Source of the DNA: Acidilobaceae archaeon
Lineage (GTDB): Archaea; Thermoproteota; Thermoprotei_A; Sulfolobales; Acidilobaceae
DNA length: 64,000 nt
Reading direction: 5' to 3'
NCBI GenBank assembly: GCA_027037535.1
Contig: JALVZQ010000008.1
Location: 235,962-299,961 of the forward strand
Positions 7,357 to 12,957 of the stretch are shown one piece after another. Below the pieces are notes generated by a model, which searched no databases, was not told the origin of the DNA, and worked only from the letters and a program-made list of their open reading frames with translations. Every line of letters starts with the position of its first letter. Position 1 is the first letter of the stretch. The position numbers and the translations under genes were made by a program.

Positions 7357-7827
7357 CTATTTAGACAGCTTCTCTATTCTTTTACTAGTGATAGACCACA
7401 GAGAATCTCCAGAACACTCTTCTAATATCTCGACATCGCCTCCACAGATTTCGATAATACTCAAAGAGGCCTTCCTTACCTGCTCTGGCGGGCCTACTAT
7501 TATTACCTTTTCAACGCGGTCGATTTCCTGTACTACGTCTGCTACTTGACGTAGCCCAAGGAGATTAGCAATAAATCTTAGATTACGGTTTTTTATCCGG
7601 TCATTTAGTAGCTCGTCCTCTATTGTATACGTGTATGCTAGTGCTATAGAACATATTGTTAAATTCTGTAACAGACGAGATGGTATGCCTGCAATGACTA
7701 GATCGCCTATAGAAACACATTTCTTAACGAATTCCTCGGGATCATAGCTACTCTTTAACGAGAGTACCTCGACTCCTATTTCTATTCCCATTAAATCGAG
7801 TCTTTTCAAGGCCTCTTGCACCGGCAT
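7357..7827 (-). CDS. Cgi121-like KEOPS subunit, probable
   Basis: A 156-residue protein whose best resemblance is Cgi121, the KEOPS subunit that presents tRNA for t6A synthesis. The region NRNLRFIANLLGLRQVADV, followed by a VEKVIIVGPP strand, corresponds to the family pattern of a helix carrying a (S/T)GxRQI-like segment and a following strand. The first half predicts an alpha/beta layout with a long hydrophobic helix (ICSIALAYTYTIEDELL). The match is by general pattern rather than by an invariant motif, so the function is tentative. It lies 23 bases downstream of the MoaD-phosphoribosyltransferase gene on the same strand, and the two may be cotranscribed. Confidence 0.5.
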   Translation of the reverse strand: MPVQEALKRLDLMGIEIGVEVLSLKSSYDPEEFVKKCVSIGDLVIAGIPSRLLQNLTICSIALAYTYTIEDELLNDRIKNRNLRFIANLLGLRQVADVVQEIDRVEKVIIVGPPEQVRKASLSIIEICGGDVEILEECSGDSLWSITSKRIEKLSK

Positions 7828-7850: not shown

Positions 7851-8594
7851 TTATTCTTCCTCTATCAATCTTCGATATTCGTTTCTCTCCCACGGGAACA
7901 CTATCCAGTTTTCTGTTACCTCGGCATAATAGTCTGGCACTAGGTTAGTCCATGGCTTAATATAGAGGGTGACTGTTTTCACTTCTTTGGGCATATGGAA
8001 TCCCACTGCCTCCATAGCTAACTGTAGGGTAAGTCCTGTATCACTTATATCGTCTACTAGCAACACTTTCTTCTCTGTTATATCTAGGACAAGTGGTTGT
8101 CTTAGATATGGCCTCTCTCCTCGTAACCCTATCGTCTTGTATAGTTTGATTTCCATTACTCCTATATCATCCACTCCGAGCTCGTCTGCTAACAGGCGAG
8201 CCGGTACAAGTCCTCCTCGCAGGATTCCTACAATCACGTCTGGTTGATAACCACTATTCCTTATCTTTTCGGCTATTTTCCTCGTGTAGAGATCTATTTT
8301 TTCCCATGATATTTGTTCTATTTCTATTCTCTCAGATTTCCCGCCATGATTTACTGGGAGGATTACTATTTCCTTGGGTACATAGTTTTTATCTACTAAT
8401 CGTATGTCTTTACCGTCTACGAAGATTATGTATCCGGGTTTTCCCTCCACGTTTTCGACATCTATAATATCTCTTAGCCCCGGATATCTTTCGGCTAGTT
8501 CTCTAAACAACTTCTCTAGACTCATATCTTCTAACTCAAGGACGTCTTTTCCTACAATTTCTTGTAGACTCGCTAGTAGCTTTACTTTTGGCAT
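7851..8594 (-). CDS. MoaD/ThiS-like ubiquitin-fold domain fused to a purine-type phosphoribosyltransferase
   Basis: Two domains in one 247-residue chain. Residues 1-85 form a beta-grasp protein of the MoaD/ThiS/SAMP type and end in ILPVNHGG, i.e. the Gly84-Gly85 pair that normally is the free C-terminus. Residues about 98-240 form a type I phosphoribosyltransferase: the PRPP motif is VLLVDDISDTG (177-187), and VGILRGGLVPARLL supplies the pyrophosphate loop. This half resembles archaeal Gpt/hypoxanthine-guanine phosphoribosyltransferases. ATG is preceded by GGAGGGG. The Gly-Gly lies at the junction, so either the fusion is cut to release a modifier, or the domain is structural. Domain identity is certain from motifs. 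The consequence of the fusion is inference. Confidence 0.85.
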   Translation of the reverse strand: MPKVKLLASLQEIVGKDVLELEDMSLEKLFRELAERYPGLRDIIDVENVEGKPGYIIFVDGKDIRLVDKNYVPKEIVILPVNHGGKSERIEIEQISWEKIDLYTRKIAEKIRNSGYQPDVIVGILRGGLVPARLLADELGVDDIGVMEIKLYKTIGLRGERPYLRQPLVLDITEKKVLLVDDISDTGLTLQLAMEAVGFHMPKEVKTVTLYIKPWTNLVPDYYAEVTENWIVFPWERNEYRRLIEEE

Positions 8595-8684: not shown

Positions 8685-8897
8685 TTACCTGGATGCCTTC
8701 TTTGCCCGTTTTGCCTCTGCATTAATCAAATGCGTTATATATCCTGCTATCTGGTTGCGGATTTTCTTGCTTCTTAATTCTAGTAGTGCCGATACTACCC
8801 TCTTGTTATGCTCGAAGTCTCCCTTAAAGAGATCAGGGTATTTTTCGAGTAGTTTTCTGGCTGTTCTTTTTACCAGGGTTGTCCTTACTTTGCCCAT
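8685..8897 (-). CDS. rps17e: 30S ribosomal protein S17e
   Basis: Small-subunit ribosomal protein found in archaea and eukaryotes. The 70-residue product begins MGKVRTTLVKRTARKLLEKY and contains the family segment DFEHNKRVV...LRSKKIRNQIAGYITHL. I chose the ATG at 8897 over the GTG one codon upstream because GGTGAGGT precedes it at a normal distance. It is short, basic and complete. It is transcribed away from the thermosome gene. The 140-base divergent spacer holds the promoters of both. Confidence 0.93.
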   Translation of the reverse strand: MGKVRTTLVKRTARKLLEKYPDLFKGDFEHNKRVVSALLELRSKKIRNQIAGYITHLINAEAKRAKKASR

Positions 8898-8971
8898 CAC
8901 TACCTCACCCTGTGGGTTGTGAACATGTTGCAGGTTTAAAACTTACAGGTTGGTAGCTGATTATTATTCGC

Positions 8972-9040: not shown

Positions 9041-10657
9041 ATGGCGGCACTACCCTTAGAATCAATGGGAGTACCAGTTATAATACTCAAAGAAGGTACC
9101 TCCCGCTCCTACGGAAAAGAAGCAGTTCGCTCGAACATAATGGCTGTAAGAGCCATCGCAGAAATCCTCAAGACCACTTATGGTCCCAAAGGAATGGACA
9201 AGATGCTAGTAGACAGCCTAGGAGACATCACAATAACAAACGATGGAGCAACAATCCTCGACAAACTAGACCTACAACATCCAGCAGGAAAAATGCTCGT
9301 ACAAATCGCTAAGGGACAAGATGAGGAGGCAGGAGACGGAACAAAGACATCTGTAATATTCGCAGGAGAACTACTCAAAGAAGGAGAAAAACTACTCAAC
9401 AACAACATACATCCCACGATAATAGTCGAGGGATACAAGAAAGCACTAGAAAAGGCACTAGAGATCCTATATGAGATAGGAAAACCAATCAGCATAGACG
9501 ATTATGAGACCTTAAAGAAGATAGCACTAACAAGCCTAAACAGTAAAGCAGTAGGCGAAGCAGCAGACTACTTCGCAGACATCGCAGTAGAAGCAATAAA
9601 GACCATAGTAGAGAAGAGAGGAGACAAATACTACGTAGACCTGAACAACGTACAGATAATCAAGAAGCATGGTGGAAGCCTAAGAGACACAAAGCTAATC
9701 AAGGGAATAGTCATCGACAAGGAAGTAGTACATCCAGACATGCCTAGAAGAGTAGAAAACGCAAAGATCGCGGTCCTAGACACACCACTAGAAATAGAAA
9801 AACCCGAAATAGACCTAGAAGTAAGCATTACAAGCCCAGACCTAGTAAAACGACTACTAGAGAAACAAGAGAAGATACTAGCAGAGAAAGTAGAAAAAAT
9901 TGCAAGTGTTGGTGCTAATGTTGTTGTGACTCAGAAGGGTATTGATGAGGTTGCGCAGCATTTCCTTGCTAAGAGGGGTATTCTTGCTGTTAGGAGGGTT
10001 AAGAGGAGTGATATTGAGAAGATTGCTAAGGCCACCGGAGCAAAAATAATAACGAACCTAGACGACCTAACCGAGGAAGACCTGGGCTATGCTGAGCTTG
10101 TTGAGGAGAGAAAAGTCGGAGAAGACAAAATGATATTCATCGAGGGAGCAAAGAACCCCAAGAGCGTAACAATACTCATAAGAGGAGGCTTCGAGAGACT
10201 CGTAGAAGAAGCCGACAGAGCACTCCATGACGCTCTAAGCGCAGTAGCAGACGCCGTAATCGACGGCAAGATCGTAGCAGGCGGAGGAGCCACCGAGGCA
10301 GAACTAGCAAAGAGGCTAAGAGAATATGCTAAGACTGTACCAGGCAAGGAACAGCTAGCCATCGAGGCATGGATAAGGGCCCTTGAAGCATTACCACAGA
10401 CTCTAGCATTCAACGCAGGACTAGACCCCGTAGAGATACTAATGAAGCTAAGAAGCGCCCACGAAGAAGGCAAGCTCTGGGCAGGCATAAACGTCGAAGA
10501 CGGAGAAATAGTCGACATGACGGAGCTAGGAGTAATAGAGCCAGTAAGAATAAAAGCAAACGCGTTCAAAGCAGGAACCGAAGTAGCTACAATGATACTA
10601 AGAATAGACGACATAATAGCCGCAAGGAGAAGTGAAGACAAAGAAGAAAAGAAGTAA
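9041..10657 (+). CDS. ths: thermosome (group II chaperonin) subunit
   Basis: ATP-driven double-ring chaperonin subunit of the cytosol, 538 residues, full length. The equatorial ATP site shows [11 protein letters not shown] and the GDGTKTS P-loop, and the second half contains [13 protein letters not shown]. The apical and intermediate segments are present and the tail is the usual charged EDKEEKK. Codon choice is extreme: most codons end in A or C. Two internal tracts (9905-10030, residues 289-330, and about 10082-10111) instead use mostly codons ending in T or G, although the protein sequence remains typical. This looks like a conversion tract from a paralogous subunit gene. A second subunit gene elsewhere is expected but not seen here. 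Confidence 0.97.
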
Positions 10658-10776: not shown

Positions 10777-11385
10777 TTGATAATAATCCTTACAGGAACC
10801 CCGGGAACAGGAAAAACTGTTTTAGGCAACTTGTTATCGAAAGAAATAGATTGCTCTCTGACAAGTACATCTACGCTGCTGAAAGAGCACGGCCTCACAC
10901 GGACAGATCCTACAGGACGCTTCACTGAAATCGTAGACGACGAAATATCCTCTGCCGTGGAAACTCTCGTAAGAGAATCCCAAGAAGACAAATGTATTGT
11001 TCTAGAGACAATATATCCCTCACTATGGCTATCCTATAAGGATCTAGACTATGAAATCCCATTAATCATATTATTACGAGCACATCCAGTTGAGCTCTAC
11101 AATAGACTAAAGACCAGGAACTGGCCAGAGCAAAAAATTATCGAAAACGCTCTCTCTGAAGCATTCAACATAATAGCTGAAGAGCTACTCGACGTCTCGC
11201 ACGATGTTCTTGAAATTGATACGTCACGGAAAACTGCTATACAATCCCTTGAATTACTATACGATAAATTAGAGGAGTGGAGAACAGGTATCTCAATAGA
11301 TTGGATAAGCGATCCAGACGTACAGAATCTAGTCGCCAGATGGAGTATCCGCATGGATCTCGACAAGTATAGGCTGGGGCTGTGA
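10777..11385 (+). CDS. adenylate kinase of the AK6/Fap7 type
   Basis: P-loop NMP kinase related to AK6/Fap7, which in archaea and eukaryotes assists small-subunit ribosome maturation together with the uS11 protein. The Walker A motif is GTPGTGKT at residues 6-13. The lid-side segment LRAHPVELYNRLKTRNWPEQKIIENALSE matches the characteristic R-x-W-P-x-x-K-x-x-E-N pattern of this subfamily. It has 202 residues, close to family length, and a TTG start. The final 57 bases overlap the convergent HerA-type ATPase gene, so the last 19 residues of both proteins share DNA. Confidence 0.85.
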   Translation: MIIILTGTPGTGKTVLGNLLSKEIDCSLTSTSTLLKEHGLTRTDPTGRFTEIVDDEISSAVETLVRESQEDKCIVLETIYPSLWLSYKDLDYEIPLIILLRAHPVELYNRLKTRNWPEQKIIENALSEAFNIIAEELLDVSHDVLEIDTSRKTAIQSLELLYDKLEEWRTGISIDWISDPDVQNLVARWSIRMDLDKYRLGL

Positions 11386-12957
11386 TATACTCTGCAATAC
11401 AACCGTACCGGTAGGTAGCTTGTCAAGCCTAGAAAACCAGTCTGCATCCATGCCCATCGTCTCTAGGATAAGTTTTTTGTCCTTATTCGATTTCAGTGAA
11501 TGAACTATCTTTGTATTAGTATTAAGTAGGAGCCTCGAATCCATTACCGAAGGACTCTGCGTAGCATATATTATGTGTACTCCATACTTCCTCGCCTCTG
11601 AAAGTATAACCGCTAGTATATCGGAGGCCATAGAGATGTTCTGCACTTCATCCATGAAGACAAACATTAAAGGAATGTTTTCTCCCTGAGAACTATATCT
11701 TCTATATGCCTCCGTGAAAATAATCGATAACATCATTATAACGTACAACCTCCTCACGTGGAGACTCATTATGTTCGATAAATCGAGGACAATCCCTGAT
11801 GCACTGTCTTTAGCTAAATCCCCTGGACAATCCCTGAAGATCCTCCTACCCTCATTTAAGACAAGCATGCCTAGTTTTCGCTGAAGCGCTCTCTTTACCT
11901 CTCTATCCCATCGAGAATCTTCAGGTAGCTCTAACACCATGCCATATAATTCGCTCAGGCTCCTAGCATTAGGCATCACCCGAGAAAGAAGATATGCTTG
12001 GGGCTCTGTGAGATCGAGTGCACGAGTCAATACCTCGAAGGCATAATCTCTACGGTCTTCACCGTTACATGAGAGTATGTCAGCAGGCAATTCTCCCGTT
12101 GACACATCAATGACTTTAAACCCTCTAGAAGCTAGTATTTTGTGTTCCCCCGTCCAATCGAAAACTAAAATCCCCGCATTGTACTGGTTAAGTAGCCGTG
12201 ATGCTAGAACTCTTAGTGTAGTTGATTTACCTGATCCTGTTGACCCAAATATCCCGATATGGCCCTCAAAATCCCTGTAGTACAGGTAAACAGGTTCGAG
12301 TCGAGGAGTGTCTAATCGGTACCCAATGAATACGCGATCCTTATCATGTCCGATCTTGTTAGACCTACTAGGTATTATCCCGGCTGGGTTAGGCGATTTT
12401 ACTGGACGTATACTTACTCCTTCTAGAAACGAGGCTATTGCACTCTCTATTATCTCGGACTCGATATCCTGGTCTTCCCCATTTATTATAAGATAAGTAG
12501 TTTTCGACCCGGATACAAACTCGTGTAGAATTGCATACCTATTGGAGGGCCTACTAGTGCTTCTCGATAAAAGAAATTCCTCTATTTTGGACCCTACTAT
12601 TGGATCACTATATATTATCTGAAAGACCTTGGGGTTTTCACCCAACTCCTCAGCTGTACGTCTATCTCCAGGACCGGGTTTTAATGGAAGCCTTATTTTC
12701 GCTGTTATATCGGCTGTGTTTACTCTGTTCAGTGAAATCACCGCTGCTAGAAAGGCTAGTCCTATTATAAACAAGACTATGGCGCCTGGTGCCCTGAAGG
12801 CATAAGCTATAAGCGCTATTGCGATTATAGCCGGTATCAGCCTTAGTATAATAGGTGCTCTCTCTAACCAGTCCAAGGTCTTTCTCCGGTAATGATATTT
12901 CCATGATTGTATACGTGGGAGAGACTGATTGATGGACGTATTGTCGTGCAGTGGCAA
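11329..12957 (-). CDS. membrane-anchored HerA/VirB4-type ATPase
   Basis: A 542-residue FtsK/HerA-superfamily ATPase. Two membrane segments (about 35-53 and 57-75) precede a soluble region of 150 residues and the ATPase domain, with Walker A GSTGSGKST (238-246), Walker B MFVFMDEVQN (around 430) and the sensor segment IIYATQSPS. HIGIFGSTGSGKS and the ATQ sensor are typical of archaeal HerA/TrwB relatives. Membrane-anchored members include CedB of the crenarchaeal DNA-import system, so DNA transport is a reasonable hypothesis, but no CedA-like multi-pass protein is nearby. The start is uncertain within the first 30 residues. It overlaps the convergent AK6 gene by 57 bases. Confidence 0.8.
   Translation of the reverse strand: MPLHDNTSINQSLPRIQSWKYHYRRKTLDWLERAPIILRLIPAIIAIALIAYAFRAPGAIVLFIIGLAFLAAVISLNRVNTADITAKIRLPLKPGPGDRRTAEELGENPKVFQIIYSDPIVGSKIEEFLLSRSTSRPSNRYAILHEFVSGSKTTYLIINGEDQDIESEIIESAIASFLEGVSIRPVKSPNPAGIIPSRSNKIGHDKDRVFIGYRLDTPRLEPVYLYYRDFEGHIGIFGSTGSGKSTTLRVLASRLLNQYNAGILVFDWTGEHKILASRGFKVIDVSTGELPADILSCNGEDRRDYAFEVLTRALDLTEPQAYLLSRVMPNARSLSELYGMVLELPEDSRWDREVKRALQRKLGMLVLNEGRRIFRDCPGDLAKDSASGIVLDLSNIMSLHVRRLYVIMMLSIIFTEAYRRYSSQGENIPLMFVFMDEVQNISMASDILAVILSEARKYGVHIIYATQSPSVMDSRLLLNTNTKIVHSLKSNKDKKLILETMGMDADWFSRLDKLPTGTVVLQSISQPQPILVEIHADTPSGD

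Follow-up and report, generated by a model that had tools for sequence, protein, structure and literature searches.

Organization of the locus

The window considered here, a stretch of 64,000 nucleotides from the genome of an Acidilobaceae archaeon, harbours an open reading frame (ORF) in which a ubiquitin-like (Ubl) domain of the Urm1 type runs through a short linker into a phosphoribosyltransferase (Table 1). The fusion gene lies next to the gene for ribosomal protein S17e, and a divergent thermosome gene and a HerA-like ATPase gene are found nearby.

Table 1. Features of the fusion gene and its neighbours in the 64,000-nucleotide window
Feature	Position	Strand	Evidence
Probable divergent Cgi121 (KEOPS subunit), next gene downstream	7357..7827	-	Profile and structure comparison
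Urm1-type Ubl–linker–phosphoribosyltransferase fusion gene, 247 aa	7851..8594	-	ORF, Pfam/NCBIfam, alignment
Phosphoribosyltransferase domain of the Gpt type, residues 97-247 plus stop	7851..8306	-	
Presumed PRPP-binding motif VLLVDDISDTG, residues 177-187	8034..8066	-	Sequence; alignment
Linker of variable sequence and length, residues 86-96	8307..8339	-	Alignment
Urm1-type beta-grasp (Ubl) domain, residues 1-85	8340..8594	-	Urm1_like match 3-85; profile vs 4wwm E 5.9e-10
Invariant His83-Gly84-Gly85, predicted cleavage after Gly85	8340..8348	-	98/98 and 69/69; pLDDT <50 at 84-87
Ribosomal protein S17e, directly upstream of the fusion	8685..8900	-	PF00833 E 7.5e-19
Thermosome subunit, divergent	9041..10657	+	PF00118 E 2.7e-192
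HerA-like ATPase, same conserved locus	11329..12957	-	PF01935 E 5e-21

An earlier note on this DNA had described a Ubl that ends in an internal Gly-Gly and continues into a complete PRPP-dependent enzyme, and both halves of this description stand. The pentapeptide VNHGG (residues 81–85) closes the match to the NCBIfam profile Urm1_like, which covers the profile in full (positions 1–79 of 79, E 2.4e-11). The enzyme half matches PF00156 (Pribosyltran) of Pfam above the cut-off at residues 104–236 (E 1.6e-24) and contains the sequence VLLVDDISDTG, which we take to be the PRPP-binding motif; within it D181, D182, S184, D185 and G187 are invariant or nearly so in the alignment of fusions. Its nearest solved relatives are the purine phosphoribosyltransferase of Pyrococcus horikoshii (1vdm; 45% identity, rmsd 1.8) and Gpt-2 of Sulfolobus solfataricus (4zfn, 4z1o; 36% identity, rmsd 1.3), both of which, unlike the window protein, are free enzymes with no Ubl. 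The Pfam match, the motif and the fold of these solved members identify the half as a phosphoribosyltransferase of the Gpt type, whose activity is predicted. Three members among the homologues listed carry the JGI label ‘hypoxanthine phosphoribosyltransferase/molybdopterin converting factor small subunit’; the domain pair is thus already annotated in one database.

The predicted structure consists of two confident domains. Residues 84–87, comprising the Gly-Gly and what follows it, have pLDDT values below 50, as does the loop formed by residues 154–159. The fold of the enzyme half starts at the same point as that of the free S. solfataricus enzyme, with residue 91 of the model superposed on chain residue 3, so that a cut after Gly85 would give a near-native N-terminus.

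Identity of the ubiquitin-like domain

The attribution of the beta-grasp half to MoaD, put forward in the earlier note, is not borne out: the ORF scores 30.8 bits with moaD_arch (TIGR01687; cut-off 49.5) and 20.1 bits with ThiS (PF02597; cut-off 22.5). When a profile built from 11 fused Ubls was compared with the PDB, the top match was 4wwm, the Urm1 of S. solfataricus, and the alignment runs through the HGG at chain residue 83. As the lists returned by structure searches were filled by the enzyme half, the Ubl fold was compared by way of this sequence profile alone. By this profile comparison, the fused Ubl is closest to archaeal Urm1 and not to MoaD. The ORF scores 43.7 bits with Urm1_like (NF053661), below the curated cut-off of 70, and the window protein has no match to PF09138 (Urm1) at E up to 1; hence the domain is here called ‘Urm1-type’ and is not filed as a member of Urm1. 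A search of the ORF with Pfam for a MoaE domain also gave no match at E up to 1. Elsewhere the source genome encodes a separate Ubl-containing ORF of 243 residues, the Aeropyrum-like counterpart of which is MoaE by Pfam.

The Urm1 of Sulfolobales (Saci0669; SiRe_1713; PDB 4wwm; arCOG00540) shares with the window domain the beta-grasp and the tail P-[VI]-N-H-G-G. In PMC2948915 (section 3.2, Table 1) the Sulfolobales gene is described from a locus with S17e, a HerA-like ATPase and a divergent thermosome gene, and these three neighbours of archaeal Urm1 are all present at the window locus. The two differ in that the Sulfolobales Urm1 is a free protein stopping at the Gly-Gly, whereas the window Ubl continues into an enzyme and scores below the Urm1_like cut-off. 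If family f4 of our genome set is taken as Sulfolobaceae, Urm1 ends at HGG-stop in 28 of 28 genomes (28 of the 31 f4 genomes being covered) and S17e adjoins it in 27. Across the named loci S17e lies immediately upstream in 33 of 34; a thermosome gene is present in 29 and divergent in 23.

The downstream gene has no Pfam match. In a profile comparison it aligns with the Cgi121-like part of other Ubl fusions, described below (82%, E 1.1e-5), and its predicted structure (mean pLDDT 88.6) retrieves Cgi121/KEOPS/PRPK entries as 19 of the top 20 PDB matches, the best with E 1.4e-4 and the remaining entry being a Pyrococcus furiosus protein that carries no name. The gene is probably a divergent Cgi121, a subunit of KEOPS, and sequence comparison shows a relative of it at 18 of the 34 loci. 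Cgi121 was stated in 2010 to be absent from Sulfolobales and Desulfurococcales (PMC2948915); set against this statement, the Cgi121-like fold suggests that divergent copies may have been missed. At a locus of family f14 (L281), S17e and the enzyme are accompanied by a protein that matches CGI-121 (E 3.7e-12). The fusion is part of a larger S17e–Urm1–phosphoribosyltransferase–Cgi121-like locus.

Conservation of the His-Gly-Gly motif

Among the 120 homologues listed out of 568 matches, 98 are full-length fusions, and HGG is invariant in all 98 when these are aligned. Only eight of the 85 Ubl columns in this alignment are invariant, and HGG accounts for three of them. Behind it come 6–16 poorly conserved residues and then an invariant tryptophan. 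The motif is likewise present in each of 69 fused ORFs taken from DNA (42 distinct sequences). A codon count, which covers 69 of 72 domain rows, shows both histidine and all four glycine codons in use at the motif; each of the other three rows is an additional match within an ORF that had been counted or that has HGG as well. What stays constant is thus the protein rather than its DNA, which indicates selection at the protein level. The earlier note had advised a search for the same domain order with the Gly-Gly kept, and had named a fusion retained without its Gly-Gly as the pattern that would speak against a processed precursor: no such case occurs among the 98 proteins and 69 ORFs. A chance read-through was also considered and is ruled out by the 98 relatives with the same fusion. 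The fusion is real, old and family-wide.

Distribution and unfused relatives

A search of 197 genomes of the class included 41 of the window's own family (f1), which, judged from named relatives, is Acidilobaceae including Aeropyrum; named Aeropyrum and Acidilobus proteins bear the fusion in the homologue listing. A full-length match is found in 37 of the 41 genomes. In two others (G097 and G131) the genes are split, one genome (G182) has the pieces on two contigs, and in the last (G170) the enzyme alone was seen. In this split pair (L115 in G097 and L116 in G131) a single added base after HGG separates the genes; the Ubl then has the tail HGGVFGG or HGGMLGG, the last two residues of which are once more Gly-Gly, and a TTG can serve as the new start of the enzyme frame. 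Programmed frameshifting may operate in these two genomes instead of a true split.

Outside the family, seven others (f3, f5, f9, f11, f12, f13 and f16) include 21 genomes with the two genes unfused; a Ubl gene there directly precedes the enzyme gene and terminates exactly at HGG-stop in 21 of 21. In two of them (G019 and G033) the Ubl gene overlaps the start of the enzyme as ATGA, and a named locus with an unfused pair (L096) has HGG-stop too.

In the enzyme tree, fused and split members fall on one branch (support 98/97) together with the long-branched G020. Acidilobaceae as a single clade, with the split pair inside, is not rejected by the AU test (p 0.417). Given one branch with the split pair inside, the simplest history is a single loss of the stop codon, followed later by a single split. 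Together with the Sulfolobaceae Urm1 beside S17e, the unfused HGG-stop relatives make the fusion look like urm1 minus its stop codon. On these sequence comparisons, the urm1 stop codon would have been lost in the ancestor of Acidilobaceae.

The arrangement varies further among the other families. In a genome of f15 (G020, L195/L094) the enzyme comes first and is followed by a Ubl with 23 residues after HGG. Nine loci of f3, which includes Pyrodictium (L272–L280), have the enzyme with no Ubl found there, S17e being present in eight, a pattern that loss of Urm1 from the f3 cluster would produce. Two Ubl-less f3 loci show by eye a Cgi121-like ORF after the enzyme; that of a Pyrodictium-like genome (L277) has no Pfam match. 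Free Ubls with other tails also occur, namely NHPG in L201 (G164) and LHRG in L220 (G027). Twelve free Urm1-type proteins carry 1–14 residues after HGG (L217, L218, L222, L225, L226, L228, L230, L231, L233, L249, L253 and L254), and all 12 genomes encode a JAMM protein above the cut-off.

A second fusion partner

Ten genomes belonging to f8 and f10 (L166–L173, L251 and L252) have a different fusion. Here the Ubl, with HGG in 10 of 10 and S17e adjacent, precedes a Cgi121-like domain of 158–185 residues. Four of the f8 proteins were scanned with Pfam: PF09138 (Urm1) is above the cut-off in all four and CGI-121 in two, the other two giving no CGI-121 match at all; the remaining fusions are named Cgi121-like from their likeness. 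A Ubl–Cgi121 fusion, with S17e adjacent in some cases, has been published for Thaumarchaea in the work of Makarova and Koonin (2010, PMC2948915). There too the Ubl is fused to a neighbouring KEOPS gene, but the partner and the lineage differ from those of the window fusion. The f8 and f10 fusions stand outside Thaumarchaea.

A special connection between purine salvage and a sulfur carrier, as envisaged by the earlier note, is not supported by these comparisons: the enzyme is what follows the Ubl in a conserved cluster, and other genomes have a Cgi121-like partner instead. Gene adjacency probably accounts for the link to purine salvage.

The unfused relatives and the second partner also bear on whether the Ubl leaves the enzyme at all. 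It might remain part of the enzyme and regulate it or serve in docking, HGG being kept for folding or for contact with the enzyme. The retention of the full-length fusion in 37 of 41 family genomes would fit such a role, as would the loop ahead of the last strand, which is shorter in fused than in free Ubls and points to change since the fusion. We regard this as unlikely, since HGG is the exact C-terminus of the unfused relatives in 21 of 21 cases, is predicted to be flexible, is followed by a linker of variable length and is kept ahead of the unrelated Cgi121-like partner as well, and since the genes have been separated again in two genomes. The earlier note had left two options side by side, a protease that frees a modifier and a domain that controls the enzyme; the former, with the cut as a prediction, is favoured by the unfused HGG-stop relatives, the secondary split and the second partner.

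E1-like and JAMM genes

The genes that the earlier note suggested looking for, an E1-like gene and a JAMM protease gene, are both present in the source genome. Among 48 Acidilobaceae genomes a ThiF/E1 match is found in 46 (above the cut-off in 43) and a Prok-JAB (JAMM) match in 42 (above the cut-off in 41). The active-site pattern HxH-x7-S-x2-D is present in the JAMM of the source genome (G000 C7:275461-275754) and in an Aeropyrum-like JAMM (G030 C1:456747-457058). A further source-genome locus (L177; G000 C5:188400-191200) contains a JAMM-like ORF of 227 residues and a ThiF-like ORF of 319 residues, the N-terminal part of which is Ubl-like by eye.

A JAMM above the cut-off occurs in 58 of 64 genomes with residues after HGG (fusions, splits and short tails) versus 13 of 68 with exact HGG-stop. 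The comparison covers 132 of the 197 genomes, the other 65 being without an HGG-tailed Ubl found or read (including three of the 31 f4 genomes). Seven Acidilobaceae of the 64 were classed without a reading of the tail, five from a full-length match, G182 from its pieces on two contigs and G170, whose Ubl was not found, by family alone; without G170 the figure is 57 of 63. Five of the six genomes lacking JAMM among the 64 are assemblies at most 87% complete and one is 92% complete. Within f8, JAMM is present in 10 of 10 continued versus 3 of 13 HGG-stop genomes (p 0.0004), and within f7 in 7 of 7 versus 4 of 6 (p 0.19). The HGG-stop genomes of f4 have none (0 of 28), and JAMM is found in five of six HGG-stop genomes of f12. 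A strict tie between JAMM and fusion is rejected, as the 13 exact HGG-stop genomes also have the protease.

The best tail-state tree, with 57 continued rows, requires nine changes, at least two of them forced by supported branches. The phylogeny-controlled comparison yields two supported independent pairs (same way 0.9, other way 0.0 on average). With two pairs only, where at least six informative ones would be needed, significance is out of reach once phylogeny is controlled, and a tie at that level is not established. JAMM could be kept in these genomes for MoaD–MoaE fusions and other Ubls instead.

A probable ubiquitin-style precursor

In eukaryotes, ubiquitin is encoded in fusion genes with ribosomal proteins, in which the modifier, an invariant Gly-Gly and an unrelated housekeeping protein follow one another in a single ORF, with more than one carrier. 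The window gene has the same composition: a Ubl, an invariant Gly-Gly and a complete unrelated protein in one ORF, in a genome that encodes a candidate protease. It differs in that the modifier is an archaeal Urm1, the carriers are a phosphoribosyltransferase or a Cgi121-like protein in different lineages, and cleavage is a prediction. From the anatomy, the conservation of HGG, the neighbourhoods and the precedents for Urm1 and JAMM, we infer that the fusion is likely to be a ubiquitin-style precursor, cut by a JAMM metalloprotease after the invariant HGG, so that Urm1 is set free and the enzyme is left at its native length, with the enzyme as a passenger. For the window protein the two products would have 85 and 162 residues. 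By analogy with the Urm1 of Sulfolobus and Saccharolobus, in which these steps are proven, the E1-like enzyme would then activate the freed glycine for attachment to lysines. The phosphoribosyltransferase, as the next gene of the cluster, is probably neither target nor regulator.

Precedents have been published. In Sulfolobus acidocaldarius an E1-like enzyme activates Urm1, which is attached to lysines by the Gly-Gly that follows H82 (PMC4569737), and the Urm1 of Sulfolobus islandicus has H81-Gly-Gly and 783 mapped sites (PMC12625751). HvJAMM1 cuts SAMP1–MoaE in vivo, where the Gly-Gly is required (PMC4443979), MoaX is cut behind its Gly-Gly (PMC4326299) and DRJAMM cuts MoaD–MoaE (PMC8832034). 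These Ubl–MoaE fusions (MoaX, the Deinococcus radiodurans MoaD–MoaE and the SAMP1–MoaE construct) resemble the window protein in the order Ubl, Gly-Gly and enzyme; they need the cut, which JAMM performs in two of them. In all of them the enzyme is the Ubl's own reaction partner, whereas in the window fusion it is an unrelated purine enzyme. As HvJAMM1 is reported to cut linear fusions in vitro without a requirement for the Gly-Gly (PMC8832034), cleavage by JAMM alone would not account for the invariance of HGG; use by E1 would.

The same literature offers another fate for the uncut protein. An N-terminal Urm1 brings GFP to the 20S proteasome of S. acidocaldarius, with at least the Urm1 part degraded (PMC4569737); the Ubl could accordingly be imagined as an N-terminal degradation tag that delivers the intact fusion to the proteasome and sets the enzyme level by Urm1 recognition. 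This we hold to be very improbable: a degron has no need of an invariant HGG or a linker, it offers no reason why free HGG-stop relatives and Cgi121-like fusions should share the motif, and it would seem wasteful to tag all molecules of a housekeeping enzyme in this way.

Were the Ubl cut free, it might serve mainly as a sulfur carrier, a thiocarboxylate for tRNA thiolation, and less as a protein modifier. Genes matching TIGR00269, presumably of the TtuA/Ncs6 type, are found in 47 of 48 Acidilobaceae. In yeast, Urm1 is reported to serve both purposes (PMC12645042). A separate ThiS/TtuB-like protein ending in SGG adjoins the TIGR00269 gene in four of four genomes inspected, including the source genome, so that tRNA thiolation need not use the fused Ubl; the HGG tail and the locus match the lysine-joined Urm1 of Sulfolobales instead. 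A predominant role in sulfur transfer is in our judgement distinctly unlikely. Two Aeropyrum genomes that appeared to be without a free Ubl in searches with PF02597, NF053661 and TIGR01687 (G030 and G061) both proved to have a free SGG-ending protein beside the TIGR00269 gene.

As for the origin of the precursor, we lean towards repeated loss of the stop codon after the HGG of Urm1 in lineages bearing JAMM. Urm1 would thereby be joined to the next gene and inactive at birth, the JAMM cut would become the obligate first step, and modifier and carrier would be made one to one. The carriers under this reading are the phosphoribosyltransferase in Acidilobaceae, the Cgi121-like protein in f8 and f10 and short tails elsewhere.

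Concluding remarks

A published description of the fusion or of its context was not found in the literature searched, most subscription papers lying outside it; the main texts of PMC2948915 and PMC1779556 contain no term beginning with ‘phosphoribosyl’. Fusions of the kind Ubl–Gly-Gly–protein are known, and what is new is this carrier, the origin from the Urm1 gene cluster and the recurrence with a second carrier. If the cut is real, archaea too would make a protein modifier in the form of a fusion precursor, as is characteristic of eukaryotic ubiquitin, with a housekeeping enzyme as the carrier; the JAMM genes of these archaea would gain a function, and the annotation of a protein family now called purine phosphoribosyltransferase would change. 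Named Aeropyrum and Acidilobus proteins bear the fusion, so that one small system allows a direct test of whether a simple JAMM protease matures a modifier.
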